Assembly: GCF_014696435.1 (NCBI RefSeq)
Contig: NZ_JACJQG010000082.1
Span: forward strand, 1 to 39,659
Source of the DNA: Calothrix anomala FACHB-343
Lineage (GTDB): Bacteria; Cyanobacteriota; Cyanobacteriia; Cyanobacteriales; Nostocaceae
Length of the DNA: 39,659 nt
Direction of reading: 5' to 3'
Part shown: positions 11,357 through 37,087 of the stretch, in pieces
How positions within the stretch are numbered: the first letter of the stretch is position 1
Layout: the number at the start of each line of letters is the position of its first letter
Notes under the pieces: model-generated
Seen by the model: the letters and a program-made list of their open reading frames with translations, nothing else
The model's database searches: none
What the model was told of the DNA's origin: nothing
Translations under genes and position numbers: made by a program

Positions 11357-11926
11357 ATGTACGGACTAGTCAACAAAGCTATTGAAGACATGATTTGCAA
11401 ATACCACGGTGAAGATACCTGGGAAAAAATTAAGGAAAAGGCTGGATTTGAGGATATTGATTTTTTTGTGGCGATGGATGCATATTCTGATGATGTTACC
11501 TATCGTTTAGTGAAAGCGGTTTGTGATGTCTTAAGAATGCCTGCACATGAAGTACTCAAAGCTTTTGGAGAATATTGGGTAACTTATACTGCAGAAGAAG
11601 GTTATGGAGAACTTCTAGCCACTGCGGGAAATTCTTTACCTCAGTTTATTGAGAATTTGGATAACCTCCATGCGCGGGTGGGTTTGAGTTTTTCCGATCT
11701 GCGCCCCCCATCTTTTGAATGCGAACACACCAGCGATAAATCGCTGCATCTCCATTACCAATCTAGCCGCCACGGATTAGCGCCGATGGTGATTGGTTTA
11801 CTCCACGGATTGGGGAAACGCTTTCACACAGAAGTAGATGTAACCCAAACTAGTTTTCGCGATCGCGGTGATGCTCACGATGTCTTCTCGATAAAGTACA
11901 ACGATTCTCACGCCGATGACAAATAA
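11357..11926 (+). CDS. H-NOX haem NO/O2-binding sensor protein
   Basis: This is a 189-residue stand-alone H-NOX (HNOB) domain that binds haem b and senses NO or O2; it is the bacterial relative of the sensor of soluble guanylate cyclase. The proximal haem ligand is H105 (NLHARVG). The haem-propionate clamp YxSxR is Y134-S136-R138. P118, which distorts the haem, and W74 in the distal region are present. From memory the sequence is very close to the well-studied Nostoc sp. PCC 7120 H-NOX, a protein of the same length. There is no distal tyrosine of the O2-binding type that I can place, which favours NO sensing. The gene has an AGGAG ribosome-binding site and its end overlaps the next kinase gene by 11 bases, so the partner is clearly that kinase. 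Confidence 0.96.
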
Positions 11927-14900
11927 TCAGGTTACTGAGTTCAGACAATTCAGTCTTAGTGCTGACCAATTTGCAGCTTTGTTTCCCTTCCATCTGGTGA
12001 TAGATCGCCAAATGAAGATTGTCCAGATGGGTGAAGTACTGCAGCGGATTTTAGAACCGATTAAAATTCTTGGTAGTTCCTTAGATGAACATTTCCAGAT
12101 TAATCGGCCTAGATGTCCAGTGAACTTTGATGCCATTAGTCAACAAACGCGATCGCTATTTCTGTTGCAATCTCAGCATAAAGAAATGCAGCTCAAAGGA
12201 CAAATGGTAAATCTAGAGGATGACGATCATCTGGTGTTTCTTGGCTCGCCCTGGATTACAGAGATTAGCGATCTCAAAAAACTTGAATTGAGCATCGATG
12301 ATTTTCCTCTCTATGACTCTGTTTCCGATTATTTGTTTCTTTTGCAAGCGAAAAATTCCGCCCTTGCAGATGCCAAAAAATTAACCACCAAACTTACACA
12401 ACAACGTTCGGAATTAAGAGCCACAGCTTCACGACTGCGAACGCTGATTGAAAGTTTACAGGTAGGTATTTTATTGGAAGACGAGAACCGACATGTGATT
12501 CTCGCCAATCAAGAGTTTTGCGATCTATTTAGTATTCCCCTGAAGCCAGAAGCTTTACAAGGAACGGATTGTCGCCAATCAGCCGAGATAAGCAAGCAAC
12601 TTTTTGCTGAACCGGAACGATTTACACAGCGCGTCCAGGAGATGTTGAGCAACGGTGAAATAGTTATGAATCAAGAATGGCCACTCAAAGATGGACGCAT
12701 TTTTGAACAAGACTATGTACCCATTATTGTGGATCATAAATTTTATGGACATTTGTGGAAATATCGCGATATTACCCAGCGCAAACAATCAGAAAATGCT
12801 TTGAGGTTAAGTGAAGAACAGTTAAAATTAGCTCTGGATGCAGTAGATGAAGGACTTTGGGACTGGAATTTAGCGACTGGAGAAGTTTATCGTAGTCCTC
12901 GCTGGTTCACCATGCTGGGGTACAATCCACAGGAGATGGCAGACGATATTAAAGTTAGAAATAAATTAATCCATCCTGAAGATAAAAAGATAGTACAGCA
13001 ACGACTGATCGATCACATCAAAGGTAAAACACCTTATTATGAAGCCGAAGTCCGCTTACTCACCAAATCTGGGGAATGGAAGTGGATTTTGGATCGGGGT
13101 AAGTTGGTAAACCGCAATTTTTCTGAAAAATATTTGCGGATGGTAGGAACCCATCTAGATATTACCGCCCGCAAACAGTCAGAAGCAGAGCTACACCAAC
13201 AGTACCAACGCGCTTTACTACTCAAGCAAATTACTGAAGAAATTCGTCAGTCTTTACAGCTGGAAAAAATTCTCCAGACAACGGTGACGGAAGTACAGCG
13301 AATTTTGCAAGCCGATCGCGTTCTGATTTTCCAAGTTCATGGTGATGGTTCTGGTAAAGTCTTGCAGGAAGCGGTAATTCCTGGCTGGTCGGCTACTTTA
13401 GCGCAGGAGATTTACGATCCTTGTTTTCATAAATACCAAGGCTTGTATCGTCAGGGCAGGATTACAGCAATTTCTGATCTAGAGCAAGCTGGACTAAAAC
13501 CTTGCTATGTAGAATTTTTACAGCAGTTTCAGGTGAAAGCGAATTTAGTCGTGCCGATTTTGGTACGAGAAGATTTGTGGGGGTTATTAATTGTGCATCA
13601 ATGCGATCGCCCCAGACAATGGACGGAATTAGAGTTAGATCTGGTCAAACATCTCGCCGATCAAATGGGTATCGCCCTGACGCAAGCCCAATTACTCACC
13701 CAGGAAACCCGCCAAGCCCATCTGTTAGCCCAGCAAAATAAAGAACTCAGCCAAGCCAAACAAGCAGCTGAAACGGCCAATATGGCTAAGAGTAACTTCC
13801 TAGCCACCATGAGTCATGAAATCCGCACGCCGATGAATGCAATTATTGGCATGACAGGATTGCTCTTAGATACTCCCCTGCAACCGGAGCAACTTGATTA
13901 TGTGGAAACGATCCGTAACAGTGGGGATACATTATTAACAATTATCAATGACATTCTCGACTTTTCTAAAATTGAGTCTGGCAATTTAGAACTAGAAGAA
14001 CAGCCTTTTGATTTGCAAGTTTGTGTGGAGGAAGCCTTAGATTTACTGGCTCCCCAAGCAGCCTTGAAAGGTATCGAACTGATGTACCAATTCCAACCGC
14101 GCACGCCAACCCTAATTATTGGTGACATTACCCGCGTGCGCCAAATTCTTTGGAATTTAGTCAGTAATGCCGTTAAATTCACCCAACAAGGTGAAGTTGT
14201 CATTACTGTCACCGTGCAGCCGCAAATTCTCGCCCAAAAAGCCAATAATAGCGATCATGTATATTATGAATTTCTGTTTGCTGTCAGCGATACAGGTATT
14301 GGCATCCCACGCGATCGCTTAGATCGACTATTTAAGCCCTTTAGTCAGGTCGATGCTTCCATGACTCGACGTTATGGCGGTACCGGCTTAGGATTAGCCA
14401 TCAGCAAGCGCCTCAGCGAGATTATGGGGGGCAAAATGTGGGTAGATAGTCAACCCGGCCAAGGCTCTACCTTTTATTTCACAGCCACCCTCCAAGTCGA
14501 TCCTTCTGCCATCGAGAATGCTTGGGATATCTATCCCGAACTGCTGGGTAAGCGATTGCTCCTCGCCACAGGTAACACCAATTTACGCAAATGCTTAACT
14601 TGTCAAATTCAAAGCTTGGGAGTCTATGTTAAACCTGTAGAATCAAGTACGGCAGTTCTGCGGTTAATGGCAGAAAATAGTTTTGACATCGCTATCTTAG
14701 ATATTGATAGTCTCGACTTGCATATTGCCGATTTGACAGCTAAAATCCGGGCAATACCAACACAACAGGATTTACCTTTGGTCATGTTGAGCTTTAAAGG
14801 TAAGCAAACTGTAGAAATCAAAGAGGTAGCTACTGAATTTGCTGCCTTTTTGCAAAAACCTGTGCGCCATTACCAATTACACAACACCCTATTACAAATA

Positions 14901-15833
14901 GTGCGTGGTAACTGGTCTACTCGACGCATCAGTCAGAAAATTACCCTTCCTTCTTATTCCCGCTTGCCAACACCAAATCTACCTAACATTGATGCCCAAA
15001 TGGGGCAAACTTTACCCCTAAAGATTCTCTTAGTAGAGGATGTGTTAGTAAATCAAAAGATTGCTTTGAAGATGTTGCAGCGCTTGGGTTACCGTGCAGA
15101 TGTGGCTAATAATGGGCTGGAAGCTCTAGAAGCCTTGCAAAGGCAACTTTATGATGTGGTGTTTATGGACATCCAAATGCCAGAAATGGATGGTTGGGAG
15201 ACTACTATCCACATTCGTCAGGAATTGTCTGAAAACACCCAACCTTGGATTATCGCCATGACAGCCCATGCGCGTCCAGAAGATCGGCAAGAATGCTTAA
15301 CTGTGGGTATGGATGATTACGTCAGTAAACCCATTAGTTTAGAAGCTCTAGAAGCAGTGCTGAAAAAGTATGATATTGCCGCACATCTAGCAGCCGCACC
15401 TCCAGAATCGATGGATGTACCGGAATCTGCATTGACTTCTACAGCTATAGAAGCAGATGTAGAATCGGATGTTCCAGAGGTAATTGAAGTTATTGATGGG
15501 CGTTTTCTCCAAGAACTGCGTGCTATGGCGGGTAGTGATGGCGATGCTTTAATTGCTGAGTTGATCCAGGTTTATTTAGAAGATACTCCCGATAAAATCC
15601 AGACAATTAAAGATGCAATTACCAAAGACGATCGCTCAACCATCGCCAAAGCCGCTCATGCTTTGCGATCGCCTAGCGTCAGTATTGGTGCTGTGCGCCT
15701 GGGAAATATCTGTGAAACTCTAGAAAATGGTGCCAAAGAGCGATCGCTAGATCAACTTACAGCACTAGTTAATCAGCTAGAGAAAGAGTATAGTAATGCG
15801 ATCGCGGCTCTCCAAAGCCGGAATTTCCTATAA
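11916..15833 (+). CDS. HNOBA-PAS-PAS-GAF hybrid histidine kinase with receivers and HPt
   Basis: This 1305-residue soluble kinase is the H-NOX partner. Residues about 1-165 form an HNOBA domain, the one that follows H-NOX in soluble guanylate cyclases ([20 protein letters not shown]), with a helix leading out. PAS domains lie at about 172-290 and 298-420. The GAF at about 430-592 carries C503 in DPCF and C530 in KPCYVEF. HisKA has H634 (MSHEIRTP); the ATPase has N751, D792 and GTGLGL. A first receiver (about 878-1000) is degenerate, lacking the N-terminal acidic pair. The second (1036-1152) is intact with D1085, T1116 and K1138. A C-terminal HPt has H1248 (AAHALRSPS). The ATG lies inside the H-NOX gene (11-base overlap, other frame), so the two are co-translated. 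The HPt could pass phosphate to the receiver-PP2C protein next door. Confidence 0.95.
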
Positions 15834-15854
15834 TCAACCCGCCCCTAATGAAAA

Positions 15855-15908
15855 TTGTACAGACGCAATTCATCGCATCTCTTGTACAGACGCGATTCAT
15901 CGCGTCTC
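15855..15908. repeat. Two tandem 27-base palindromic units
   Basis: 15855-15881 and 15882-15908 are head-to-tail copies starting TTGTACAGACGC and ending ATCTC or GTCTC. They differ at only two positions (CAATT/CGATT, CGCAT/CGCGT), and each is nearly palindromic. They share the core of the palindrome at 4121-4140. Confidence 0.75.
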
Positions 15909-15910
15909 TA

Positions 15911-15931
15911 ACAAATGACAAATGACAAATG
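15911..15931. repeat. ACAAATG heptamer repeats that supply the next start codon
   Basis: Three ACAAATG units end with the ATG (15929-15931) of the receiver-PP2C gene. There is no Shine-Dalgarno, and ATGs recur every 7 bases, so only the last is in frame. Confidence 0.7.
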
Positions 15932-17125
15932 ACAACCATATCTAATTCACCAATAAAAATTTTAGTAATTGATGACGATCGCGTTATTCAACTAGTTTTA
16001 AAGCAAACTCTCCAAGCTCAGGGATATGAAGTAATTCTCGCTAACAATGGTCTGCAAGGCGTAGAACAAGCTTATAAACACCAGCCAGCCTTAATTATTT
16101 CTGATTGGCAAATGGAAGAAATGGATGGTTTAGAAGTATGCCGCAAAATTAAATCTGAACCTTCTCTATCAACCACATTTTTTATTCTCCTCACTTCACG
16201 TAAAGCTATAGAAGATAAAGTTGAGGGTTTAGATACAGGTGCAGATGACTTTTTAAATAAACCGATTGAAGTCAATGAATTAAAAGCTAGAGTCCGTGCG
16301 GGACTGAGACTGTATCAAACAAATCAAGAACTGAAAAAAGTAGCCCAAGATTTACAAATCCAAAAACAGCTGCTCGAAGCAGAATTAAATGAAGCTGCGG
16401 ATTATGTCAAATCTATTCTTCCCGCACCCATAACAGGAGCAGTGACCATCAATTCTCAGTTCTTACCCTCCCGTCAATTGGGAGGTGATTGTTTTGATTA
16501 CTATTGGTTAGATGCAGATAATTTAGTCATCTATCTTTTAGATGTTTCTGGTCATGGATTAGCAGCAGCCCTACCTTCCATTTCCATCCATAATCTATTG
16601 CGATCGCATTCTCTCCCCACAGCCAGTCTTTATAATCCATCTGAAGTGCTACAAGATTTAAATCAAGTGTTTCAAATGGATCAGCACAATTCTCAATACT
16701 TTACTATTTGGTATGGGGTTTTTAACCTCAGTTCCTCTCAATTAACTTACTCTAGTGCCGGACATCCTCCAGCTTTGTTATTGTCGCCCTCAACCGACTC
16801 TGGTTTAGAGGTAAAACAATTAGTTATGCGTGGCTTACCTATCGGCGCATTTACTCAAGCTCAATATCACAATGCTGTATGTGATATTCAAGCTGGAAGT
16901 AAACTGTATGTATTTAGCGATGGCGTTTATGAGGTAGAAAAAGCTGATGGTAACATGTGGAATTTTAATGGCTTCATTAATTTATTAACTGTGTGCAATC
17001 AACAATTTCACACTAGTGTTAATCAGATTTCCGAAGCAATCAAAAATGTCACAGGTAGTCAAATATTTAACGATGACTTTTCTTTATTAGAAATTGAATT
17101 TAAGCCGGAGTCAGCTGTTCCATAA
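15929..17125 (+). CDS. Receiver-PP2C (SpoIIE/RsbU-type) serine phosphatase response regulator
   Basis: In this 398-residue protein the receiver spans about 8-128, with D15-D17, phosphoacceptor D59 (ISDWQMEEMDG), T89 and K111. A helical linker (130-165) leads to a PP2C-type phosphatase at 170-392, with metal-site motifs GGDCFD (D187, D190), DVSGHG (D205), VFSDGVYE (D331) and NDDFS (D382-D383). Such proteins dephosphorylate STAS-domain antagonists in partner switches. The likely upstream kinase is the HNOBA hybrid kinase 95 bases before it on the same strand, which ends in HPt. The likely targets are the STAS domains of the two genes just beyond. The start ATG comes from a heptamer repeat, and the REC fold begins eight residues later. 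The 3' end overlaps the convergent STAS gene by 26 bases. Domain order resembles phosphatases such as HmpU of hormogonium partner switches (family knowledge, not a search). Confidence 0.93.
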   Translation: MTTISNSPIKILVIDDDRVIQLVLKQTLQAQGYEVILANNGLQGVEQAYKHQPALIISDWQMEEMDGLEVCRKIKSEPSLSTTFFILLTSRKAIEDKVEGLDTGADDFLNKPIEVNELKARVRAGLRLYQTNQELKKVAQDLQIQKQLLEAELNEAADYVKSILPAPITGAVTINSQFLPSRQLGGDCFDYYWLDADNLVIYLLDVSGHGLAAALPSISIHNLLRSHSLPTASLYNPSEVLQDLNQVFQMDQHNSQYFTIWYGVFNLSSSQLTYSSAGHPPALLLSPSTDSGLEVKQLVMRGLPIGAFTQAQYHNAVCDIQAGSKLYVFSDGVYEVEKADGNMWNFNGFINLLTVCNQQFHTSVNQISEAIKNVTGSQIFNDDFSLLEIEFKPESAVP

Positions 17126-17423
17126 ACGCAGCTTGGTCAGGTAAAACCTCAAAAATAGTTGTTGTATTGCTGAGTTCTAAAATCATTCTAATTTGTTCGT
17201 TAATCGAACAAAGTACTAGCCTACCTTGTTCTTGTTGTACTGTCTTTAGCATTGACAGCAGAGTGCCAAATCCAGAGCTATCCATAAAAGTAACAGCTTG
17301 AAAATCTAGCAAGAATGTTTTGGCACCCGCAGCCATCAATTTACTCATCTGTTCATAGGTTTCTCGACCTTGTTTACCATTAAAAATTCCGGCTGGCTGA
17401 ATAACTTTCACTTGCTTTTCCAT
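17100..17423 (-). CDS. STAS-domain anti-sigma-factor antagonist (SpoIIAA/RsbV-type)
   Basis: This is a 107-residue single STAS domain. S49 in FMDSSGFG sits where SpoIIAA is phosphorylated. In partner switches the unphosphorylated form binds the RsbW-type kinase, and the PP2C phosphatase resets it. A frame start 17 codons upstream is possible, but MEKQVKV at 17423 is where the domain begins and the extra N-terminal residues are unlike the family. The gene is on the same strand as the RsbW-type gene, 149 bases beyond that gene's stop, with a dispersed repeat between them. It is tail-to-tail with the phosphatase gene (26-base overlap), so mRNA 3' ends of the two are complementary. Confidence 0.9.
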   Translation of the reverse strand: MEKQVKVIQPAGIFNGKQGRETYEQMSKLMAAGAKTFLLDFQAVTFMDSSGFGTLLSMLKTVQQEQGRLVLCSINEQIRMILELSNTTTIFEVLPDQAAFMEQLTPA

Positions 17424-17496
17424 GAGTTTGATTGCAAAGGTAAGATCCAATAATAGAATAAGATGCAAAAACAAAGTTAAAACGCAAACAGTAAGC

Positions 17497-17545
17497 TATA
17501 GCAATCCTAAATGAGCCATCAATACTTACTCCTCCTTGTCCATGT
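17497..17545. repeat. Half copy of the TATAGCAATCCT repeat family
   Basis: TATAGCAATCCT at 17497-17508 is identical to the end of the 1507-1600 element. AATACTTA and CTCCTTGTC follow in the same order as in the inverse reading of that element. The second inverted end is missing. It sits between the STAS and RsbW-type genes. Confidence 0.55.
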
Positions 17546-17572
17546 TGATAAAAACTAATACCAACTCAAAAT

Positions 17573-18043
17573 TTACCGAGTAATATCTTTCTTTAATAAC
17601 AGGCAGTTTTTATCCCCCGCTTCCCGCGTATAACTAACAGTCCAACCGTAATCTCTTTTAAGCCGTAAAAGAAAAATACAGCCCCAGTGAGCTTCCCGAT
17701 CTAAAGGGTTAAAACTGCCATTACTCGTTTGTTGATTAAGCTCGTCTAAAACTGCTTCTAGGTCGAAAATATCACCGCAATCCCAAATATAAATCTGGAA
17801 AGATTTGGAGTCAATTGTCGCTGCTAAGTCAACAGGAGTTTGTGAACTCAGGTGGCTGTGAGCGTGACGTACCACATTGGTAAAGCCTTCAAGCAAGGCA
17901 GTTTGACCTTCTATCCACATTTGGTATGGTAGATGCTTACAGTTGAATTGATCAAACCATTCTACAACTATTGCCATTTCATCTAAATCACTGGCAACTT
18001 GTAAAGCAGAATGATGCAGAAATGAATTTGTTTGCAGTGACAT
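17573..18043 (-). CDS. RsbW/SpoIIAB-type serine kinase (HATPase_c_2), anti-sigma-factor-like
   Basis: This 156-residue GHKL ATPase has N-box E52/N56 (LLEGFTNVVRHAH), a G1-type region around D88 (IWDCGDIFDLE) and a short late glycine region (WGCIFLLRL, about 120-128). Proteins of this type phosphorylate STAS antagonists on serine and sequester a partner. The ATG directly follows the stop codon of the STAS-sugar transferase gene (TAAATG), so the two are translated together. No sigma factor gene is in the window. This suggests that its partner here is the STAS domain on the transferase rather than a sigma factor, which is inference. The G1 motif (DCGDIFD in place of DxGxG) is looser than in SpoIIAB, but forms like it are common in cyanobacterial members. 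Confidence 0.85.
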   Translation of the reverse strand: MSLQTNSFLHHSALQVASDLDEMAIVVEWFDQFNCKHLPYQMWIEGQTALLEGFTNVVRHAHSHLSSQTPVDLAATIDSKSFQIYIWDCGDIFDLEAVLDELNQQTSNGSFNPLDREAHWGCIFLLRLKRDYGWTVSYTREAGDKNCLLLKKDITR

Positions 18044-19054
18044 TTAGACTGCCCCAGAATCTTTTTGGAAAAATACAGTAATTGTCTTGAAAATTAACTT
18101 TAAATCATAAAGTAAACTCCAATTATTTTGATAACGTAAATCGAGTTCAATTACATCCTCAAAGTTACGGATTTTTGAGCGCCCATTAACTTGCCACTCA
18201 CCGCTAAGTCCAGGTTTGACATCTAATCTTTGCCAATTAGCAATTTCATATTTTTCCATTTCATCGGGAGTTGGCGGACGAGTGCCAATTAAGCTCATAT
18301 CTCCGATGAGAATATTCCAAAATTGGGGAAATTCATCTAAGCTAGTTTTGCGCAGAAAGCTTCCCACACGGGTGATGCGTGGATCGGCATCATTTTTGAA
18401 AAAAGCACCAGATGCTTGGTTAGGAATAGTTGCTTTCAGTGCTTCTGCATTTGTCACCATTGAGCGAAACTTCCAAATGCGAAACCGTCTTCCCATCCAG
18501 CCACAGCGAGTTTGGCTAAATAGTATAGGCCCCGGACTATCGAGTTTAATCGCGATCGCAATTGGCACAAATAAGACAGCAGTGAGCATTAAGCCCAAAA
18601 TTGCACCGACAATATCAATGGCGCGTTTAATTGGCGATCGCACCGACGGATGGGTTAAGGGGGGACGCTGCTCAACTTTGCGGTTTAACGTCGGGATAAT
18701 CGCCTCTGTATTAGCTTCAATCTGAAATATCTCTTCTAAACCTACCAAAGAAAAAGCCAGTTGTACCTGGGGTTGCACGCTCCAAAAGACTAATTCAATA
18801 TTTTTGGCCTGTGCAGATTTATGATTCGTAATCAATGCACCAACGCCACTACTATCAATCAGTGCAGTCTGGCCAAAGTCTAAGATAATTTTTTTGATCG
18901 TATCTTCTTCCAACCATGTCTGAAACTGCTTACGGAAGGAAACAGCCTCAATCACAGTTAATCTGGCAGGTAGCTGAACTAAGAGCAGACCACCTTTACG
19001 AGTCGTCTTGAGAGATGCTGTAGTTGTAGTTTTCGTATTAGTCTGAGAACTCAT
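18044..19054 (-). CDS. STAS domain fused to an undecaprenyl-phosphate sugar-1-P transferase
   Basis: In this 336-residue fusion, residues about 20-125 are a STAS domain with S68 in LIDSSGVG, the site that RsbW-type kinases phosphorylate. A linker (126-140) leads to a bacterial sugar transferase (PF02397, WcaJ/ExoY group) at 142-330. It has a membrane segment at about 147-170, the conserved WKFRSM, DADPRITRVG, catalytic D240-E241 in TSLDEFPQFWNIL, and GTRPP. The enzyme loads the first sugar-1-phosphate onto the lipid carrier, starting exopolysaccharide synthesis at the inner face of the plasma membrane. The gene overlaps pssE-like upstream by 4 bases (ATGA) and abuts the RsbW-type gene downstream. 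The fusion puts the phosphorylatable switch on the priming enzyme itself. Standard members have instead either no N-terminal domain or membrane helices and a CoA-binding-like domain. Confidence 0.92.
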   Translation of the reverse strand: MSSQTNTKTTTTASLKTTRKGGLLLVQLPARLTVIEAVSFRKQFQTWLEEDTIKKIILDFGQTALIDSSGVGALITNHKSAQAKNIELVFWSVQPQVQLAFSLVGLEEIFQIEANTEAIIPTLNRKVEQRPPLTHPSVRSPIKRAIDIVGAILGLMLTAVLFVPIAIAIKLDSPGPILFSQTRCGWMGRRFRIWKFRSMVTNAEALKATIPNQASGAFFKNDADPRITRVGSFLRKTSLDEFPQFWNILIGDMSLIGTRPPTPDEMEKYEIANWQRLDVKPGLSGEWQVNGRSKIRNFEDVIELDLRYQNNWSLLYDLKLIFKTITVFFQKDSGAV

Positions 19055-19566
19055 AATTTAGACACACCTACTGACAATTCTGGAAAACTTTCACCAAAGC
19101 GAGCTTGCAGACTATTGCAAAGTGCGATCGCACTCGCCGTAGACACATCTGCAATCGATATCTGTTCAGGAGCCTCAATAAATCGCACCAAATCTGCCGG
19201 CGACCAAGCTATAGGTACATTCAACTGCGATAGTGCTAGCGCTAGTTCTACTTGATGATCGTCAACATGTTCGCCAAATCTCTGGCTGCGAGGTACCAAA
19301 ATATAGGGTTTATCCAAAGAATCTAACAGCAGTAAAGTTCCTTCGCCACAATGAGCAATCACGATTCGCGCCTGCTGAATCAATTCCTGAAATTGCTCTT
19401 CTTTGACAAAACGATAAACCCGCGCACCAGCAGGTAAAACGGCGTTAGAACTGCCATACTGCACCACAACTTCCTCATCAATGAGTTGTGTTTGCAGTAA
19501 TACCTCAATCCAAGACATCAAACGGTTGAAAGGATACTGTTCCGAACCAACTGTGACAAAAATCAT
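19051..19566 (-). CDS. PssE/Alg13-like glycosyltransferase subunit (GT28 C-terminal type)
   Basis: This 171-residue protein resembles the donor-binding half of bipartite glycosyltransferases (Alg13, PssE, CpsG). Recognisable parts are the N-terminal MIFVTVGSEQYPFNRLM, the IAHCGEGTLLLL nucleotide-sugar motif (about 90-101) and the VDDHQ motif (about 122-126). It acts with the adjacent PssD/Alg14-like membrane subunit, with which it overlaps by 4 bases. In homologous systems the pair adds the second sugar onto the lipid-linked monosaccharide, which fits the priming transferase directly downstream. Confidence 0.88.
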   Translation of the reverse strand: MIFVTVGSEQYPFNRLMSWIEVLLQTQLIDEEVVVQYGSSNAVLPAGARVYRFVKEEQFQELIQQARIVIAHCGEGTLLLLDSLDKPYILVPRSQRFGEHVDDHQVELALALSQLNVPIAWSPADLVRFIEAPEQISIADVSTASAIALCNSLQARFGESFPELSVGVSKL

Positions 19567-20018
19567 AGACTTTCCTGGGGAACGATCAGTTCAGCTTGGG
19601 GATAACGAGCTTGTAGTTGGGGCCATTGCACATATAAGACGCTTAAAAAAGGCAAAGTTAACCTCGCAGATAAACTTAAAGTCTCAATTCGCGTCACAGA
19701 TTCAATAAACGCTGTTTTACAACCTAACAACTTACCCAAAATCAAAAAAGGTACAGCAACTCCTGCACCTGTAGAGATAATCAAGTCAGGTTGATTTTGG
19801 TTAATAACTTGAAAAGCTAACAGCAAATTCCGGAAAAAATTCGGTAAATTGCGATTAGTTGGACTAAAAGCCCAATATACAGTTTCTTCGGACAAAGCTG
19901 CTTGTGTAGTTGCGCTTTTAAAAGTTACCCAAACCCGCTCATGCGGTTCCCAAAACGGACGCAATTGCTGCAGACCTTTAAAATGTCCTCCAGAGGAACA
20001 AACTAATAATACCTTCAT
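19563..20018 (-). CDS. PssD/Alg14-like glycosyltransferase membrane subunit
   Basis: This 151-residue protein has the Alg14-type start MKVLLVCSSGGHFKGLQQL, the ISTGAGVAVPFL motif (about 80-91) and a FIESVTRIETLS segment typical of PssD/CpsF. It anchors the PssE/Alg13-like subunit at the membrane. It is the first gene of a tightly packed leftward operon: pssD-like, pssE-like, STAS-sugar transferase, RsbW-type kinase. Each junction overlaps by 4 bases or abuts. The start ATG at 20018 is clear from the conserved N-terminus. Confidence 0.88.
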   Translation of the reverse strand: MKVLLVCSSGGHFKGLQQLRPFWEPHERVWVTFKSATTQAALSEETVYWAFSPTNRNLPNFFRNLLLAFQVINQNQPDLIISTGAGVAVPFLILGKLLGCKTAFIESVTRIETLSLSARLTLPFLSVLYVQWPQLQARYPQAELIVPQESL

Positions 20019-20447
20019 AGATAAAGATAAATTTCCCTGAAAATGCTATTTTGTGATGATAAAAGTCAGATTCTACAGATTTTCCCGAAAAACTTGGTGC
20101 AAAATGATTGAACACCTTTTTGAGAAGTTATAAATTGCTTCCTAACTTCTCACTTATTGACCTTTATACACTATTTCACAACTTTCAAGTATTTTCCAGA
20201 AAATTTTTGACATATTTGCTACCAGTTTTTCTGGGAAGTATAGCAAGTCTTTTACTCTTGAGGCGGGATAAAGCTTCTGGATTTAGACAATCCACAACTA
20301 AACACATTTGATGGAAAACAATATATTTATTTAGGTAAAAAGTACTAAATAAAACGTTATTAATTACGCAAAGATAAGTGTATGCACCGATGTAGATAAA
20401 CATGATTTTATTTAATCTGTAGAGACATTAGTGTTATTAATTTGACA
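20019..20447. other. Divergent intergenic region of the polysaccharide locus
   Basis: About 430 AT-rich bases lie between the leftward pssD-like operon and the rightward GT2 gene. The frames inside are short, overlap each other on opposite strands and show no family features. It must hold promoters in both directions, but no -35/-10 pair with correct spacing stands out. Confidence 0.5.
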
Positions 20448-21479
20448 ATGAGTGGTCATGCTAAAGTTTCTGTGATTGTGCCTGTCTATCAAGTAGAGAA
20501 GTACATACATGAAACAATTAGTTCAATTTTGCAGCAGACATGGCAGGACTTTGAGCTATTAATTATAGATGACGAATCGCGCGATCGCAGTATCGAGATT
20601 TGTCGAGAATTTACCGATAGTAGAATCAAAATCATTAGCCAAAAAAATCGCGGATTAGCAGGAGCAAGAAATACAGGGATTCGCCATGCTCAAGGGGAAT
20701 ATTTAGCTTTCCTAGATTCTGACGATTTATGGCTACCACAGAAATTAGAAAAGCATCTACATCATTTAGAAAATAACCCAACTATCGGTATTAGTTTTAG
20801 CCGCTCTGCCTTTATTGATGAACAAGGAAAGCCATTAGGCATCTATCAAATGCCTAAACTCAAAAATATCAGTGCTAGCGATTTATTCTGCCGCAATCCT
20901 ATCGGTAACGGTTCCGCCGTAGTCATTCGCCGGGAAGTTTTGCAAGAAATTAAATTTGCAGAGACTGTTGATGGCGTCCTAGAAGACTGGTATTTTGATG
21001 AAAGCTTCCGTCAATCTGAAGATATAGAATGCTGGTTGCGCATCATTCTGCAAACCAAATGGCAAATTGAAGGTATTCCTGAAGCTTTGACTTTATATCG
21101 CGTCAACTCTGGTGGTTTGTCTGCAAATCTGCTCAAGCAACTAGAATCTTGGGAACGGATTATTGATAAAGCCAAAGTATACGCCCCAGAATTCATTGCA
21201 AAATGGGAAAATCCGGCTAGAGCCTATCAATTAAGATATCTAGCTCGAAGAGCTGTGAGACAACGCGATAGTAAGGTTGCAGTAGAACTAGTCAATCGTG
21301 CATTGATGACTCATTGGCAAATACTGTTAGCAGAACCTCATCGCACAATCTTGACTATATTGGCAGCTTATTTGCAGCACCTTCTCCCTAAATCATTTTA
21401 TTCTCAGATAGAAGCTCTCAGTCTGCAAATCACAGGCGCTAATCAAAAACGCCAAATTAACCAAGACCAATTTGTTTAA
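20448..21479 (+). CDS. Family 2 glycosyltransferase (first of two paralogues)
   Basis: This is a 343-residue GT2 (GT-A fold) enzyme. It has the VSVIVPVYQVEKYI start, D41-D42 in the nucleotide-binding strand, NRGLAGARNTGIRHAQG, and the metal-binding D90-S-D92-D93. The remainder is a helical acceptor region. It transfers a sugar from a nucleotide donor onto the lipid-linked repeat unit at the cytoplasmic face. The start is the ATG at 20448; a TTG two codons earlier is possible. The length and most motifs match the GT2 gene at 23998 closely, so the two are duplicates flanking the GT4 and flippase genes. The donor and acceptor sugars cannot be told from sequence. Confidence 0.92.
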   Translation: MSGHAKVSVIVPVYQVEKYIHETISSILQQTWQDFELLIIDDESRDRSIEICREFTDSRIKIISQKNRGLAGARNTGIRHAQGEYLAFLDSDDLWLPQKLEKHLHHLENNPTIGISFSRSAFIDEQGKPLGIYQMPKLKNISASDLFCRNPIGNGSAVVIRREVLQEIKFAETVDGVLEDWYFDESFRQSEDIECWLRIILQTKWQIEGIPEALTLYRVNSGGLSANLLKQLESWERIIDKAKVYAPEFIAKWENPARAYQLRYLARRAVRQRDSKVAVELVNRALMTHWQILLAEPHRTILTILAAYLQHLLPKSFYSQIEALSLQITGANQKRQINQDQFV

Positions 21480-21533
21480 TTGCGTTCATCTTTGTTCCCT
21501 AATCTAGCAATTTTCACTCATCTTCTCTTCAGT

Positions 21534-21614
21534 TTCGGCTGTTCTCGATAAGTCTGAGAGAAGCCGAAGCCTAACTCCATTTTTTGTCTTGGCTGTTAAC
21601 TACTGGGTTAACAG
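21534..21614 (+). other. Two consecutive hairpins between GT2 and GT4 genes
   Basis: TTCGGCT (21534-21540) pairs with AGCCGAA (21562-21568), with extra pairing inside (TTCTC/GAGAA). CTGTTAAC (21593-21600) pairs perfectly with GTTAACAG (21607-21614) around a 6-base loop. A TTTTTT run follows the first hairpin at about 21580-21585, so that one might act as a weak terminator or attenuator within the polysaccharide locus. Confidence 0.45.
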
Positions 21615-21656
21615 TCAAATTTCGAATTGTTAATTAATAATATCTGAGTTAAAAAA

Positions 21657-22637
21657 ATGAAGCCAAGAATATTACATTTAATCAGCGACACAAAAATGGG
21701 TGGAATTATGTCTGCCCTCAAAAGTTTGACAACTTCCTATTTAAAAGATAAATGGGATTTTGTGATCGGCTCTAGTAAAAAACTATCAAATAATAAATCA
21801 TCATTTAAAGTCATTATTTTTCATGATTCCCGTAATTGGAAACGCTTACTCAAATTATTAATCATCAAACTTAAAAACCCCCAAAGCCAAATAGTTATTC
21901 ACGAACATCATTATTCTGAGGGATTTGTGCAATGTAATGTGCCTAACAAATCTCGATTTTATTTGATGCTCAAGTTGTCTTATGGTCTTGCTGACTGGGT
22001 AGTAGCTATCTCTTACGGTCAAGAAAAATGGTTAAAAGAAAACCGCTTAGTTTCTGCGAAAAAATTAGTTTTAATTCAGCAGTGTCGAGCGCTGAATGAT
22101 TTTTTCACAGTTCCACCAAAACCTATCGAAAAACCATTAATTGTCGGAGCTTATGGGCGGTTTCATCCGCAAAAAGGATTTGATACTTTACTAGAGGCTA
22201 TGAAATTAATTCCCAATTCACCGATTAAATTACGCATTGCTGGTGAGGGGGATGAAGAAACCAAATTAAAACAATTAGCCCAAGGATTGAATAACGTTGA
22301 ATTTATTGGGAGAGTTGATAATGTACCTGAGTTTCTCCAAACCTGTGATGCAGTAGCAATACCCTCGCGCTGGGAACCAATGGGAATAGTTGGCGTAGAA
22401 GCTAAAGCAGCAGGTAGGTTTGTGATTGCTACCGAGATAGATGGTTTAACTGAACAAGTTGCTCACTGTGGTGTTCTAGTTCCCCCCCAAGATCCAGAAA
22501 AACTCGCTCAGGCGATCGCCTCTATTCCTGAGCAAGATATAGAAGCACTAGCTAAAATTGGACGCCAATCAGTAGAAGGCGCTTGGGAGAAATACTTAGA
22601 CGAATGGGATACTTTTCTCAGCCAAATAACTCAATAA
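21657..22637 (+). CDS. Family 4 glycosyltransferase
   Basis: This 326-residue GT-B retaining glycosyltransferase has a short N-terminal acceptor domain (about 1-155, MKPRILHLISDTKMGG). Its GT4 C-terminal domain carries GAYGRFHPQKGFDTLLEA (164-181), GEGDEETKLKQ and the E-x7-E motif, E240 to E248 (WEPMGIVGVE). It acts in the cytoplasm on the growing lipid-linked oligosaccharide. The gene follows the GT2 after 177 bases containing two hairpins and is 31 bases upstream of the flippase. The sugar is not predictable. Confidence 0.92.
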   Translation: MKPRILHLISDTKMGGIMSALKSLTTSYLKDKWDFVIGSSKKLSNNKSSFKVIIFHDSRNWKRLLKLLIIKLKNPQSQIVIHEHHYSEGFVQCNVPNKSRFYLMLKLSYGLADWVVAISYGQEKWLKENRLVSAKKLVLIQQCRALNDFFTVPPKPIEKPLIVGAYGRFHPQKGFDTLLEAMKLIPNSPIKLRIAGEGDEETKLKQLAQGLNNVEFIGRVDNVPEFLQTCDAVAIPSRWEPMGIVGVEAKAAGRFVIATEIDGLTEQVAHCGVLVPPQDPEKLAQAIASIPEQDIEALAKIGRQSVEGAWEKYLDEWDTFLSQITQ

Positions 22638-22668
22638 CTTCCCTCATATTTTTCAGGAATAAATCAAG

Positions 22669-23964
22669 ATGAATTTGGCTAAAGATTTCACGAGCAAAAT
22701 TAGATATAAACTCTCAGATAAATTTATTCAAAATTTTAGCTGGCTAGGGGGAGCACAAATTGTCTATCGCTTTTTTCGGTTAGCAACTACAATCACATTA
22801 GCTCGGTTATTAAACCCTGTTGATTATGGTTTAGCTGCACTCGTATTAACTACCAATGAATTTGTCAATGTATTTGCCCAATCTGGCATTGACGTTAAGC
22901 TAATTCAAGCACCAGAAAAAGAACTTAATGAATTATGTAACACGGCCTATTGGTTAAATTGGTTGATGTATAGTGGGATTTTTCTCATCCAATGTATTGT
23001 TGCTTTTATTATTGGCTGGGCTTATGGCAACATGCAATTGATTTTGCCAATATGTCTCATGGCAACAGTTTATTTAACTATCCCCATTGCCTTAGTACAA
23101 TGTGTGTTAATTCAGCGCGAAAATCGTATGAGCGTTATAGCTGTAACTCACATGTTGCAGCTCTGCATTGATTGCGTATTAACCATTATCCTGGCTTTCC
23201 TCGGCTTGGGAATGTGGGCGATTATTTTACCAAAAATCTTAGTAGCTCCTATTTGGGTATGGCGATGTTATGCTCATCATCCTTGGCGAGTCAATAGTAA
23301 ATTTACATTAAAAAACTGGCAAGAAATAGTCAAATTTGGTCGAAATATATTAGGTTCTCAACTGCTAACAACTCTCAGGAATAATATTGATTATTTCTTA
23401 GTCGGTACATTTTTAGGAGTTGAGCAATTAGGAGTATATTATTTTGCTTTTAATGCAGGATTAGGTATTAGCCTGGGTATTATTACAGCCTTTAGCTCGG
23501 CTTTATTTCCTTATTTATGCTCCGTCAGCAATAATCTTGAACGGTTAAAAGAACGGTTCTTTAAAGGTTTAAAAACCGTTGCTTTAATTACAATTCCGCT
23601 CATCTTACTGCAATCCACTACATCACCTTTTTATGTACCCTTAATCTTTGGTCAAAAGTGGGTAATAGCAGGTGCAGTACCAATTTTGATTCTTATTTGT
23701 TTATCTGCGATTCCTCGCCCTTTTGGAGATGCAGCTTCCCAAATTCTACGTGCAGTCAATAAACCAGATATCGATTTTAAATGGAATGTAATTTTTACAG
23801 CCATTTTAGTATTTGGTTTACTCGTAGGTTTACAGTGGGGTTTAGTTGGTGTCGCCGCCGCAGTCCTAATTGTCCATGTTGTCACCATACCTATCTTCAC
23901 CCTTTGGTCGAGTAGATACGTCATCACCACCCATCCCGATACAATCTTTAAAACCTCTCTTTAA
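22669..23964 (+). CDS. Wzx-type polysaccharide flippase (MOP/oligosaccharidyl-lipid flippase)
   Basis: This 431-residue, very hydrophobic protein has about 12 predicted membrane helices. It contains the family's early segment (FSWLGGAQIVYRFFRLATT..LARLLNPVDYGLAAL) and a later LGVEQLGVYYFAFNAGLG. It flips the undecaprenyl-linked repeat unit from the cytoplasmic to the periplasmic face of the plasma membrane for polymerisation. An AGGA element precedes the ATG. It sits between the GT4 and the second GT2, all on the plus strand with 30-34-base gaps, which is a clear operon. Confidence 0.92.
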   Translation: MNLAKDFTSKIRYKLSDKFIQNFSWLGGAQIVYRFFRLATTITLARLLNPVDYGLAALVLTTNEFVNVFAQSGIDVKLIQAPEKELNELCNTAYWLNWLMYSGIFLIQCIVAFIIGWAYGNMQLILPICLMATVYLTIPIALVQCVLIQRENRMSVIAVTHMLQLCIDCVLTIILAFLGLGMWAIILPKILVAPIWVWRCYAHHPWRVNSKFTLKNWQEIVKFGRNILGSQLLTTLRNNIDYFLVGTFLGVEQLGVYYFAFNAGLGISLGIITAFSSALFPYLCSVSNNLERLKERFFKGLKTVALITIPLILLQSTTSPFYVPLIFGQKWVIAGAVPILILICLSAIPRPFGDAASQILRAVNKPDIDFKWNVIFTAILVFGLLVGLQWGLVGVAAAVLIVHVVTIPIFTLWSSRYVITTHPDTIFKTSL

Positions 23965-23997
23965 CGCTCAATTTAAATCTCAAATTGGATAAATTAT

Positions 23998-25029
23998 ATG
24001 CCGAAAATTTCGGTCATCGTACCAGTTTATCAAGTCGAAGCTTACATTGCAGATACAATCTCTTCAGTTTTGGCGCAAACATACTCAGACTTTGAATTAT
24101 TACTTATCGATGATGGTTCCCCAGATAAAAGTATAGATATTTGTCGGCAATTTACAGATTCTCGAATTAAAATTATCTCTCAACAAAATAGAGGATTAGC
24201 GGGAGCTAGAAACACAGGTATTCGCCACGCACAAGGCGAATATTTAGCATTTTTAGATTCTGACGATCTTTGGACACCAGAAAAACTAGAAAAACATCTC
24301 ATTCATTTAGAAAACTCACCTTCTGTCGGCGTTAGTTTTAGTCGCTCTGCTTTTATCAATGAGACTGGAGAGTTCATGAATGAATATCAAATGCCGCGAC
24401 TCAAAGACATTACCCCATTCCATTTACTTCAAGGTAATCATGTTGGTAATGGCTCCGCACCAGTTGTGCGACGAAAAGTGTTTGAGGAAATTAAATTTAC
24501 TGCAAATTTGCATGGTACTGTCGAGGATTTTTATTTTGATGAAGCCTTTAAACGTGCAGAAGATATTGAATGTTGGCTGCGTGTAGCTATTCAAACCAAT
24601 TGGCAGATTGAAGGCATACCAGAAGCTTTAACATTATACAGAGTAAATTCTCAAGGTCTTTCAGCTAGTTTATTACAGCAATTTGACTCTTGGAAACAAG
24701 TATTAGAAAAAACTCGTGCTTATGCACCTGATTTAATTGCTCAATGGGAAAATTTATCTCAAGCATACCAGTTACGATATCTAGCAAGAACATCTGTACG
24801 TTTACGCATGGACGCTCTCGCCGTTAAATTGATTCACCAAGCGCTAAAAACACACTGGTTTATAATATTTGAAGAACCTCGATTTACAATTTCTACTTTA
24901 GTTGCAGCTTATTTGCTCTGGCTCTTACCAAAGAATCTTTATAACCAAATCGAGATTTATGCTATCGAAAAAATGCGAAGATTACGCAGACAGCCCATTT
25001 TTTCAGATAAGCCAGGACTCATACAATAA
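23998..25029 (+). CDS. Family 2 glycosyltransferase (second paralogue)
   Basis: This 343-residue GT2 is collinear with the enzyme at 20448 along its whole length. Shared parts include the VPVYQVE start, D38-D39, the NRGLAGARNTGIRHAQG block, D87-S-D89-D90, and the later NGSA, EDIECWLR and LTLYRVNS blocks. The duplicates differ most between about residues 110 and 160 and at the C-terminus, where acceptor specificity usually lies. This fits duplication followed by change of acceptor or donor. The stop codon coincides with the first base of a 133-bp inverted-repeat element. Confidence 0.92.
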   Translation: MPKISVIVPVYQVEAYIADTISSVLAQTYSDFELLLIDDGSPDKSIDICRQFTDSRIKIISQQNRGLAGARNTGIRHAQGEYLAFLDSDDLWTPEKLEKHLIHLENSPSVGVSFSRSAFINETGEFMNEYQMPRLKDITPFHLLQGNHVGNGSAPVVRRKVFEEIKFTANLHGTVEDFYFDEAFKRAEDIECWLRVAIQTNWQIEGIPEALTLYRVNSQGLSASLLQQFDSWKQVLEKTRAYAPDLIAQWENLSQAYQLRYLARTSVRLRMDALAVKLIHQALKTHWFIIFEEPRFTISTLVAAYLLWLLPKNLYNQIEIYAIEKMRRLRRQPIFSDKPGLIQ

Positions 25030-25161
25030 GGGACTTCCAACTAAAAAAATATAAAGTGCGATGTGAGCAGAGGGAGCAGAGGATGCAGAGGGAGCAGAGG
25101 AGGAAGAATATAATTGCGATCTTCGCGCTTAAACTGGATAATTTAATTTCTGGAAGTCCCT
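25029..25161. repeat. 133-bp element with 11-bp perfect inverted ends (MITE-like)
   Basis: AGGGACTTCCA (25029-25039) is exactly inverted as TGGAAGTCCCT (25151-25161). Inside are GAGCAGAGG-type purine repeats and no coding capacity. The left end starts at the last base of the GT2 stop codon, so an insertion may have occurred at the very end of the gene. It does not resemble the 1507-1600 family. Confidence 0.6.
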
Positions 25162-25182
25162 AAACAGATTTATTCCCTTAAT

Positions 25183-25221
25183 ATAAGAAAACCGACTTTT
25201 TCAACAAGTCGGTTTTCTTAT
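25183..25221. terminator. Bidirectional hairpin terminator
   Basis: ATAAGAAAACCGACTT (25183-25198) forms a perfect 16-bp stem with AAGTCGGTTTTCTTAT (25206-25221) around a 7-base loop. A/T runs sit on both flanks. It lies between the rightward GT2 operon and the leftward GT61 gene, exactly where a terminator for both is expected. Confidence 0.85.
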
Positions 25222-25245
25222 AGAGTGAATTAATACAATAGACTA

Positions 25246-26451
25246 CTAAACACTCATTTCTTTGACAATAGCTAATAATTTTTGAATATCAACAATCATA
25301 TCTGCATCGTGAGTTCTTAAGTCACCTTTGGGAGAATCACCCAGCAACGCCGCATAATCAAACCCTAAACCGCCGCATAATTCATAATAAGATGCAACAG
25401 GTACAGTTTTGGCAAATAGTTCAATCAGTTTTAAGTTTTTAGAAAAGATAATATTAGTCAACCCTGCTCCATGAGGAGAGATTATCATTTTGGCATTAGC
25501 AAATAAATGAACTTGTTCCGCAAAACTTAGATCCTCTGTTACGTAATCTACAAAACCCAATTTTTCTAGTTCTTGAATGACTTCTTGCTCGTTCACTACC
25601 TTTCTAACTAAAGTATTGCGTCGTGAAACATAAATATGGGTAGGAGTCGGTTTAGCTTTAATATCTGCTGGGAGATTACTAATTATCTTTTCTGCTAACC
25701 AACGACAAGAAGCCGGAGAAACGTGACAGTAAAATCCATCTTCATCTTTGATAGAACGACGAAAAGAAGGAACTAGTAAATTATTTACTAACATCCTTTT
25801 GCCATTCCATACTTGATAATCTGCTTCGCTATAGCCCAGTAATTTTAAGCTATCTACCTGATACTGTTGTAAATTTGGGCGGATGAGTAATTTGATTTTG
25901 ACACCAAATTTTCTTTCATACTCCATTACCCCTTCCAATCTGGTGAGACAATCAATTAGCCAATGAAAATAATTATTATCCCAAGGGCATACTAGAGAAA
26001 AGACTGTATCTTGATGAGTATAAGGCGAGAATTTTTTGGATAACAGAGTTCTCAGAGATAAAATTCTGGATAAATGGTCTGCTGTATATTGAGGCCAGCT
26101 TGTTTCTAAAATAACCCTACCTTGACTATCAAAGCCAGTAGCATCTTTTCCCGCTAATTCTCCATTTTTGATACTGGCTACAAATGGTTTAGGAAATACC
26201 AGATTTTCAAATTCGGTAAATTTCTCGTGTTCTATAACATTCTTTCTCTTAAGAGAACTTACCTCATCTGCGTCTTGAAAGAAAAATGGATTATTCTTGA
26301 GTAAATCATTGCGATCTACTACCTGCATTCCTGATAATCGCAATAAATTAATAATAGGCTGACGTAATTTATATTTAAGTCCACTACGATACAAGGCTCT
26401 GTAAAAGACTCTGAGAGGAACTATTTTCTTGAGTGTGGATTTTAATGACAT
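25246..26451 (-). CDS. Family 61 glycosyltransferase (DUF563)
   Basis: This 401-residue GT61-type glycosyltransferase belongs to the family related to plant xylosyl/arabinosyl and animal EOGT enzymes and common in bacterial polysaccharide loci. Diagnostic motifs are NNYFHWLID (159-167), YVSRR (274-278) and SPHGAGLTNIIF (325-336). The N-terminal 80 residues are basic and helical. It is on the strand opposite to the flanking polysaccharide genes, with its own terminator side at 25183-25221, so it is separately transcribed. It probably adds a further sugar or side branch to the same polymer; this is inferred from location. Confidence 0.9.
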   Translation of the reverse strand: MSLKSTLKKIVPLRVFYRALYRSGLKYKLRQPIINLLRLSGMQVVDRNDLLKNNPFFFQDADEVSSLKRKNVIEHEKFTEFENLVFPKPFVASIKNGELAGKDATGFDSQGRVILETSWPQYTADHLSRILSLRTLLSKKFSPYTHQDTVFSLVCPWDNNYFHWLIDCLTRLEGVMEYERKFGVKIKLLIRPNLQQYQVDSLKLLGYSEADYQVWNGKRMLVNNLLVPSFRRSIKDEDGFYCHVSPASCRWLAEKIISNLPADIKAKPTPTHIYVSRRNTLVRKVVNEQEVIQELEKLGFVDYVTEDLSFAEQVHLFANAKMIISPHGAGLTNIIFSKNLKLIELFAKTVPVASYYELCGGLGFDYAALLGDSPKGDLRTHDADMIVDIQKLLAIVKEMSV

Positions 26452-27188
26452 TTGTTTTCAGGTTAATTATACGATTGGCAAAGAAACTATATTTAAATTG
26501 CATAGCGGAAAACAATCAAGCTCTTATGCTAGGAGTCATTTTGACCGCCAAAATTATGCAAAATAAATGTTTCAAAAACTTTCACCTGCTTCTGCAGGAT
26601 AATGTAAACAAAAAAGGATATTTTCATTACACGATAAACTTTGAGGCGGCAAATGCTACTTTGATTAATGATTAGCTTACAGCAATATATTTATTAGCCT
26701 AAGCTGACAGAAAGACCATTCAAGTTAAGATGCCTTATCAGCACAAGTTAACTATTTTTGCTAACTTATCGCTAACTTATATAGATCAATTACTATATAT
26801 AAAATAAAGAAAATACTCGCAAAATACATCAGCATTTTTACATAACTCACGGTATGATAAAGAAAAATTTTGAAAATCTATCAATATAATTAGCTGATTA
26901 AATCCGCACATGTGATTTATGTCTAATTAGTAGCTACTGCAAATTGCGCATTTATTCATCAAATTAAAATTACCGTAAATTTACGGTTATAGATATTAAG
27001 CATCCGCTTTTATAGTTATTATTACCGATGGCTGTTGGCTATGCTTTGTTTATTCTGAGAATTTTCTGGATATATAGAAGGATTTATAGAATAATCAGTG
27101 CATATAAATTTTAATAATATTCCGATTAATAATGTGATTCAATTCAATCTCATTAATTGAGTGAAATATTATTTATAGCCAGTTTATT
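26452..27188. other. Long AT-rich divergent intergenic region
   Basis: This 737-base region separates the GT61 gene from the exporter operon. The only longer frame (26433-26675, plus) begins inside the GT61 gene on the other strand and has no recognisable features, so I do not call a gene. A GCTAACTTA direct repeat lies near 26758-26778, and a 16-bp perfect palindrome at 26972-26987. The region should carry promoters in both directions. Confidence 0.6.
26972..26987. promoter_or_regulatory. 16-bp perfect palindrome, possible operator
   Basis: ACCGTAAATTTACGGT is its own reverse complement and lies about 200 bases upstream of the exporter gene. Its size and symmetry fit a dimeric regulator's site. 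No regulator of that type is encoded in the window. Confidence 0.35.
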
Positions 27189-28250: not shown

Positions 28251-28333
28251 ACCTAATATATAGTTAAAAACCATGAAAAATATGTAAAAAATGCCAACTT
28301 TATCCTAATTGTGAACACAGACAACAAAACCCT

Positions 28334-29868: not shown

Positions 29869-29875
29869 TTTAATT

Positions 29876-37083: not shown

Positions 37084-37087
37084 ATTT

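Follow-up and report, generated by a model that had tools for sequence, protein, structure and literature searches.

A candidate gas-gated partner switch with a polysaccharide-priming transferase as its likely target in Calothrix anomala

Introduction

In Bacillus, the partner switches SpoIIAB/SpoIIAA/SpoIIE and RsbW/RsbV with its PP2C phosphatase have a sigma factor as their target. Here, we analysed a stretch of 39,659 bases from the cyanobacterium Calothrix anomala FACHB-343 (contig NZ_JACJQG010000082.1, positions 1 to 39,659, referred to as the window), which encodes proteins sharing with the Bacillus systems the kinase fold, the STAS serine and the PP2C residues, but no linked sigma factor. 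The switch lies next to an H-NOX gas sensor with its histidine kinase, and one of its two STAS domains is fused to a priming sugar-phosphate transferase. On balance, comparison with related loci makes it probable that these genes form a gas-gated partner switch in which the regulated target is an enzyme, namely the priming transferase.

A close functional precedent is the syp pathway of Vibrio fischeri. HnoX is reported to inhibit HahK, which contributes to the activation of SypF; SypF in turn targets SypG and SypE, the second of which controls SypA below the level of transcription (PMC12369376). As described there, this HnoX-HahK-SypF-SypE-SypA route resembles the present locus in that polysaccharide production is influenced below transcription by a kinase under H-NOX control together with a phosphorelay, a response regulator with serine kinase/phosphatase function and a STAS protein. 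However, SypE joins kinase and phosphatase, and the STAS protein SypA is separate, its target being stated as unknown in the sections available (PMC10120452, PMC12369376). In the window, no SypE-like single kinase-receiver-PP2C protein is present, kinase and receiver-PP2C being separate genes, and the STAS domain resides inside the priming transferase.

The HmpUVW proteins of Nostoc punctiforme constitute a cyanobacterial phosphatase/STAS/kinase switch tied to motility and polysaccharide, for which the available excerpts give no known sigma target (PMC8256260, PMC6495340). It differs from the locus studied here in that the solo STAS protein HmpV serves as output, through an effector that is undefined, and the excerpts describe neither a fused enzyme nor an H-NOX protein (PMC6495340). 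The STAS-transferase fusion itself is already known: All4160 of Anabaena sp. PCC 7120 appears in the text at hand as a glycosyltransferase with an N-terminal STAS domain (PMC8256260), and as one of the genes needed for heterocyst envelope polysaccharide (PMC4390870); these partial texts mention no kinase or phosphatase partner for it. Finally, the name Alr2278 (Ns H-NOX), a close relative of the gas sensor described here, covers 22 PDB entries of H-NOX alone, and no pathway of the H-NOX-to-switch kind is named for it in the open-access literature surveyed, as far as its text was accessible.

A preliminary description of the window had presented a direct switch on the first enzyme of exopolysaccharide synthesis as new. 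The fusion, however, is in print, and an H-NOX-kinase-to-STAS polysaccharide route, albeit with unknown target, exists in V. fischeri. For the pairing of kinase and transferase, no paper was found in the accessible portions of the open-access literature. STAS switches that act on polysaccharide without a known sigma target, i.e. those of SypA and HmpV, have undefined effectors, whereas here the target would be written into the gene, and it is the first enzyme of polymer synthesis. Kinase and transferase are found as a pair in many parts of the phylum, so that the proposal is testable in laboratory strains. If true, it would also provide a pathway for Alr2278-type H-NOX, and gas sensing would control slime without transcription.

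Results and discussion

Six genes in two convergent groups encode the parts of a partner switch

Open reading frame (ORF) and Pfam scans of the window placed the six genes in two convergent groups, three on each strand:

11357-11926, plus strand: H-NOX gas sensor (HNOB 1.4e-54, Pfam)
11916-15833, plus strand: hybrid histidine kinase of 1305 amino acids, HNOBA-PAS-PAS-GAF-HisKA-HATPase-two receivers-HPt (Pfam)
15929-17125, plus strand: receiver-PP2C (SpoIIE-type) serine phosphatase (SpoIIE 2.1e-41, Response_reg 1.9e-27)
17100-17474, minus strand: solo STAS protein (STAS 6.1e-14)
17573-18043, minus strand: RsbW/SpoIIAB-type serine kinase (HATPase_c_2 1.1e-12; RsbW structure profile match 6e-12)
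18044-19054, minus strand: fusion of a STAS domain (about residues 13-120) with a priming sugar-phosphate transferase (about 138-336; Bac_transf 8.8e-66, STAS 3.7e-17)

Every one of the six parts named in the preliminary description was confirmed by Pfam, and the family match for all six ORFs led us to reject frame artefacts. The order along the DNA had been given as a single series; the parts are present as described, but they form two convergent groups and not one operon. The statement that all roles of a partner switch are represented without a sigma factor also holds, as no sigma70 gene is present on the contig of the window and the 12 sigma70_r2 genes of the genome are all located on other contigs.

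The minus-strand genes belong to a unit pssD-pssE-fusion-kinase-STAS that runs from 20018 down to 17100, its first four genes abutting or overlapping by 4 bases. At its end, the 3' end of the solo STAS gene overlaps the phosphatase gene; the true start of solo STAS likely lies nearer 17423, where its homologues begin. On the plus strand, the start of the HNOBA kinase gene (11916) overlaps the end of the H-NOX gene (11926). The H-NOX protein matches the crystal structures of Alr2278 (1.7e-97), to which it is 76% identical, and has the YxSxR motif and the LHAR histidine in common with it. Thus, an H-NOX with heme histidine and YxSxR motif adjoins an HNOBA kinase, as in H-NOX/HNOBA two-component systems. 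In receiver 1 of this kinase the usual acidic pair is absent ('LLATGN', read from the sequence), and only the second receiver looks competent.

The switch itself consists of a GHKL serine kinase with intact residues, STAS domains with a conserved serine and a SpoIIE/PP2C phosphatase. The predicted fold of the kinase (predicted local distance difference test, pLDDT, 90.3) finds its best matches in SpoIIAB and RsbW, mostly from complexes with STAS partners, including SpoIIAB-SpoIIAA and RsbV-RsbW, and the fusion gave profile matches to WbaP, PglC-type and SpoIIAA structures. All 94 distinct kinase rows have E52, N56, D88, G90 and G121 intact. In the fused STAS domain, D67-S68 is kept throughout (85 of 85 rows), and so is D48-S49 in solo STAS (50 of 50 distinct rows). 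The PP2C residues D187, D205, D331, D382 and D383 are retained in all 45 rows, D59 of the attached receiver in 44 of 45 (one gap) and the HPt histidine in 28 of 32 (four gaps); which of these residues of kinase, STAS, PP2C and HPt are presumably catalytic follows from the known families. D240-E241 of the transferase, which we take to be the catalytic Asp-Glu dyad of Bac_transf, is invariant (39/39 rows).

We propose that the RsbW-type kinase would phosphorylate the conserved serine on the STAS domain of the priming transferase as well as that on solo STAS, and that the receiver-PP2C would strip the phosphates from both. Solo STAS would compete for the kinase, thereby tuning the share of transferase that is kinase-bound or phosphorylated, and the state of the transferase would determine the amount of lipid-linked first sugar available for the polymer of the cluster. 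The H-NOX/HNOBA hybrid kinase would, via its HPt domain, most likely set the phosphorylation of the PP2C receiver, such that NO (or O2) might gate polysaccharide initiation post-translationally. The phosphotransfers and the ligand in this model are inferred, and the switch may either activate or inhibit the transferase.

The fused STAS domain co-diverges with the neighbouring kinase

Mirror-tree comparisons, with percent identity as distance, revealed that across 63 kinase-fusion pairs the STAS domain correlates with the kinase at r 0.87, as compared to 0.65 for the catalytic domain and the kinase; the partial correlations are 0.76 and 0.04, respectively. The same was seen among 16 Nostocaceae rows with all six parts (the window and G049 left out), where STAS-kinase r is 0.75, whereas the STAS domain and its own catalytic domain reach only 0.16. 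The remaining values are 0.27 for catalytic domain-kinase, 0.40 for STAS-PP2C and 0.20 for STAS-PssE. A partial Mantel test on these 16 rows, controlled for catalytic domain, PssE and PP2C, gave r 0.71 for STAS-kinase (p 0.0002, the floor of 5000 permutations). With the same controls, solo STAS-kinase yielded 0.37 (p 0.002), and kinase-PP2C yielded 0.56 (p 0.0004) with catalytic domain and PssE as controls. STAS-PP2C dropped to -0.11 once the kinase was among the controls. On the DNA, the STAS domain is separated from the kinase gene by the catalytic domain, and thus linkage alone would predict the opposite pattern. Parts, intact residues, conserved neighbourhood (see below) and specific STAS-kinase co-divergence are established at the level of sequence, and we regard it as likely that the kinase acts on the fused STAS domain and that the kinase-STAS-transferase switch is real.

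The association is kept through rearrangement in Nostocaceae

To describe the neighbourhood, we used the 17 Nostocaceae genomes with an orthologue of the STAS-transferase, the window included; 17 is the number of genomes examined and no census. Where measured, the fusions are 76-84% identical to that of the window (G557 lies outside this measurement). The RsbW-type kinase adjoins the fusion in 17 of 17 genomes and the receiver-PP2C is located near it in 17 of 17, as is a solo STAS gene in 16. The HNOBA kinase is present in 15 of these loci; of the other two, one is devoid of it and in one the contig ends too early. H-NOX was found in 12 of the 17, one of which (G166) has split H-NOX and kinase frames. 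A further locus, that of Tolypothrix FACHB-123 (L058), holds the complete set too. The neighbourhood expected by the preliminary description was thus recovered in relatives.

At least three gene orders occur among these loci, inversions included. The groups may be convergent as in the window or all co-directional (L047, L049); in L276 all genes again point the same way, but the H-NOX group follows the switch on its downstream side and has its internal order reversed, and in L042 the H-NOX group is found on the other side of the transferase. As the association is kept through rearrangement, inertia is a poor explanation for it.

The kinase-transferase pair extends across the phylum

In a phylum sample of 386 genomes, relatives of the RsbW-type kinase are present in at least 115 (E<=1e-15) and transferases matching the fusion profile in at least 111 (E<=1e-85), part of the latter without a STAS domain. 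Adjacency was counted from 80 kinase rows and 51 fusion rows among the matches listed. Short partial matches and most weak kinase rows were left out; the family's own fusions entered with six rows of the window clade only, paralogue rows and the broken-frame G344 row being left out. Outside the family, the matches listed include 45 full-length fusions; for 31 of them a kinase gene lies no more than 1.5 kb away, in 30 cases downstream on the same strand and in 18 within 60 bases. Inspection of the 14 exceptions added two (L228, L233), giving 33 of 45 among the matches listed; in L238, kinase, PP2C and STAS are all present within about 3 kb, and L226, L234 and L235 have a solo STAS gene nearby.

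When mapped on a tree built from 85 fusions, adjacency to a kinase requires 7 changes as compared to 19.7 with shuffled labels. The window falls into a supported clade of 29 rows, comprising Nostocaceae and the Cyanobium/Synechococcus group, of which 28 have a kinase neighbour. A STAS-transferase that is ubiquitous in Nostocaceae, matched in 192 of 193 family genomes (E<=1e-60), forms a paralogue clade of nine rows, none of which has a kinase neighbour, and for this reason we rejected it as part of the same system. All4160 is probably this roughly 60% identical paralogue and would then differ from the window's fusion in the missing kinase neighbour as well.

We also examined 80 loci picked by the kinase pattern among the matches listed, a biased sample of which 53 hold a fusion. 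Five loci assigned to Oscillatoriales by name (L078, L079, L080, L082, L124) combine kinase, fusion and solo STAS with a receiver-less PP2C of 722-876 amino acids; the one tested contains GAF and PAS domains. The same core genes thus occur with a different PP2C, which suggests that the core is constant while the input varies. The whole arrangement of H-NOX, HNOBA kinase with HPt, receiver-PP2C, solo STAS and pssD-pssE-fusion-kinase recurs in L214 and L218, which we place in the Cyanobium/Synechococcus group via matching named contigs (L084, L075). H-NOX identities are 54 and 51%, and the distance between the H-NOX/PP2C/STAS group and pssD-pssE-fusion-kinase amounts to 9 kb in L214 and 3 kb in L218. 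Homologues of Wza, Wzy and Wzx occupy this space in L214, where best matches along the locus reach 37-74% identity; L218 has broken frames for both fusion and phosphatase. As the set is conserved through inversions and across lineages, chance neighbours were rejected as an explanation.

Taken together, phylum-wide adjacency, STAS-kinase co-divergence and conserved residues give the proposed switch on the priming transferase good support by sequence comparison. More tentatively, these loci may represent a phylum-wide class of partner switches that have an enzyme instead of a transcription factor as output. An RsbW-type kinase would gate a priming phosphoglycosyl transferase via its built-in STAS domain, with exchangeable sensors of which the Alr2278-type H-NOX would be the gas input of one; the missing target of HmpV and SypA could then likewise be a priming transferase, reached by a STAS protein that is not part of it.

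A related module that lacks the transferase and is made up of solo STAS, receiver-PP2C and kinase was seen in L085, L098, L102, L115 and similar loci of Oscillatoriales and Leptolyngbyaceae. It may be of the HmpUVW type.

Sigma factor or transferase as target

Several observations weigh against the transferase as target. Paralogues that have no kinase next to them keep the STAS serine just as strictly, and its conservation is therefore not diagnostic of kinase linkage. The AlphaFold model of the fusion is of moderate quality (pLDDT 77.3; predicted template modelling score 0.54), and thus the STAS domain is not placed against the active site. STAS domain and kinase both have higher evolutionary rates than the catalytic domain, and their co-divergence could be inflated as a result; however, PP2C has a rate like that of the STAS domain and reaches only the r of 0.40 given above. 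In the PssE-holding subset (n=27) the contrast is weaker, with 0.61 vs 0.34. Outside the family, eight of 45 fusions have neither kinase nor solo STAS nearby among the matches listed. Moreover, four genomes of the window's genus (L277, L286-L288) carry H-NOX, HNOBA kinase, receiver-PP2C, STAS and kinase without an adjacent transferase and hold only the paralogue, here roughly 61-62% identical. Hence, an adjacent transferase is not the sole possible target, and in these genomes the switch may act on the paralogue or on something else.

The persistence of the switch in these four genomes would fit a classical anti-sigma system with an unlinked sigma factor sequestered by the kinase, solo STAS as antagonist and PP2C as activator, the STAS-transferase being co-regulated or a second substrate. 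The kinase fold and its conserved residues are of the RsbW/SpoIIAB type, related kinases accompany receiver-PP2C and STAS without transferase (e.g. L085, L098, L102), and the 12 sigma-70 genes of the genome offer candidates. We nevertheless consider this unlikely: the kinase adjoins the fusion in 33 of the 45 cases counted among the matches listed, its co-divergence with the STAS domain is specific, and the contig is without a sigma gene, although the target could still be unlinked. In addition, HmpUVW appears to use an alternative mechanism with HmpV as output, a sigma target still being possible there, as far as the available text goes (PMC6495340). Adjacency, co-divergence and the location of the sigma genes on other contigs thus point to the priming transferase as the likely target.

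Another explanation gives the STAS domain a structural or ligand-sensing role within the transferase, with no relation to the kinase next to it. Some STAS domains, such as those of MlaB and SulP, are not known to act by phosphorylation, and the nine paralogue rows keep their STAS domain without a kinase neighbour. The phylum-wide adjacency and the co-divergence with the kinase render this highly improbable.

H-NOX as one probable input among several

The preliminary description had placed H-NOX at the head of the switch. This is supported for Nostocaceae and for the two genomes of the Cyanobium/Synechococcus group, but not universally, so that the overall interpretation is upheld in part, i.e. 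by comparison for the transferase-directed switch and with restrictions for its gas-sensor end. PF07700 was found in 27 of the 386 genomes, most of which pair H-NOX with a short HNOBA kinase (about 460-560 amino acids) and have no PP2C nearby. Alr2278-like H-NOX proteins (>=71% identity; one split) occur in 24 of 218 family genomes. In twelve of these loci, the receiver-PP2C, the kinase and the fusion all lie within about 16 kb, four have PP2C, STAS and kinase without fusion, and one has PP2C only. Against a general link stand the remaining seven, which are without any switch part nearby, the presence of a receiver-PP2C near H-NOX in only four of the 27 genomes (G000, G055, G472, G344), and three loci (L290-L292) that keep the HNOBA kinase with no adjacent H-NOX. 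Across the phylum, H-NOX is probably one input among several.

A further rival accepts the switch on the transferase but assigns its main input to something other than the H-NOX kinase: this kinase would feed other receivers, e.g. the receiver-EAL protein (35890-37083), and another kinase would serve PP2C. Many characterised H-NOX kinases feed cyclic di-GMP (c-di-GMP) enzymes, and the receiver-EAL gene of the window comes with its own PAS kinase. The seven loci without PP2C nearby and L290-L292 would fit this explanation, as would G049, where H-NOX kinase and switch are far apart. On the other hand, the receiver-PP2C accompanies the HNOBA hybrid kinase in the 15 of 17 Nostocaceae loci that have the latter, directly follows it on the same strand in the window and stands beside it again in the two Cyanobium/Synechococcus-group genomes, which makes the rival a rather improbable one. 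A c-di-GMP output as the nearest reading was set aside, since the receiver-EAL gene is about 17 kb off and beside its own kinase; it is kept within this rival. For the genome of the window, we regard the link of H-NOX to the switch as fairly probable.

In Nostoc parmelioides FACHB-3921 (L063 and G172, one contig), H-NOX is 96% identical to Alr2278. A serine/threonine kinase-AAA-GAF-HisKA protein of 1783 amino acids is encoded inside this locus (L063:11209-16560), and ORFs of 1777 amino acids occur near the HNOBA kinase in L290-L292. All2282 of PCC 7120 is given as a serine/threonine kinase-GAF-HisKA protein (PMC2176072). The H-NOX identity together with this protein in L063 suggests that alr2278-all228x of PCC 7120 is very probably the same locus.

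A second kind of cyanobacterial H-NOX, with the short HNOBA kinase, was observed near phycobilisome core genes in Nostocaceae (L207:214-12330; L212 by ORF sizes). Its neighbours in L207 comprise a methyltransferase, a haem-oxygenase-like iron enzyme, a linker protein of 1134 amino acids and two ORFs of 161 amino acids, of which the tested one encodes a phycobilisome protein. This is possibly a separate gas-sensing pathway.

The surrounding polysaccharide cluster

The six-gene set is part of a Wzx/Wzy-type polysaccharide cluster that reaches 31159:

19051-19566, minus strand: PssE/Cps14G-like glycosyltransferase subunit (NCBIfam PssE 2.6e-24, under its cut-off; Glyco_tran_28_C)
19563-20018, minus strand: PssD/Cps14F-like glycosyltransferase subunit (NCBIfam PssD 3.3e-35, over its cut-off)
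20442-31159: remainder of the cluster, including glycosyltransferases
22669-23964: Wzx-type flippase
27189-28250: export protein
28453-29868: chain-length determinant (weak match), 471 amino acids
29876-31159: Wzy-like protein

The pssE gene of L061 and L042 (Calothrix PCC 7103) is broken into two ORFs that flank an ORF of the opposite strand, which resembles the outcome of an insertion. The 471-residue protein between the export and Wzy-like genes belongs to no Pfam family and is 46-52% conserved in related clusters. Beyond the cluster, a NACHT NTPase with a C-terminal helical NCH2 domain (33339-35645) adjoins, and the receiver-EAL protein and the multi-PAS histidine kinase next to it (35890-39586) may provide a separate c-di-GMP input near the cluster.

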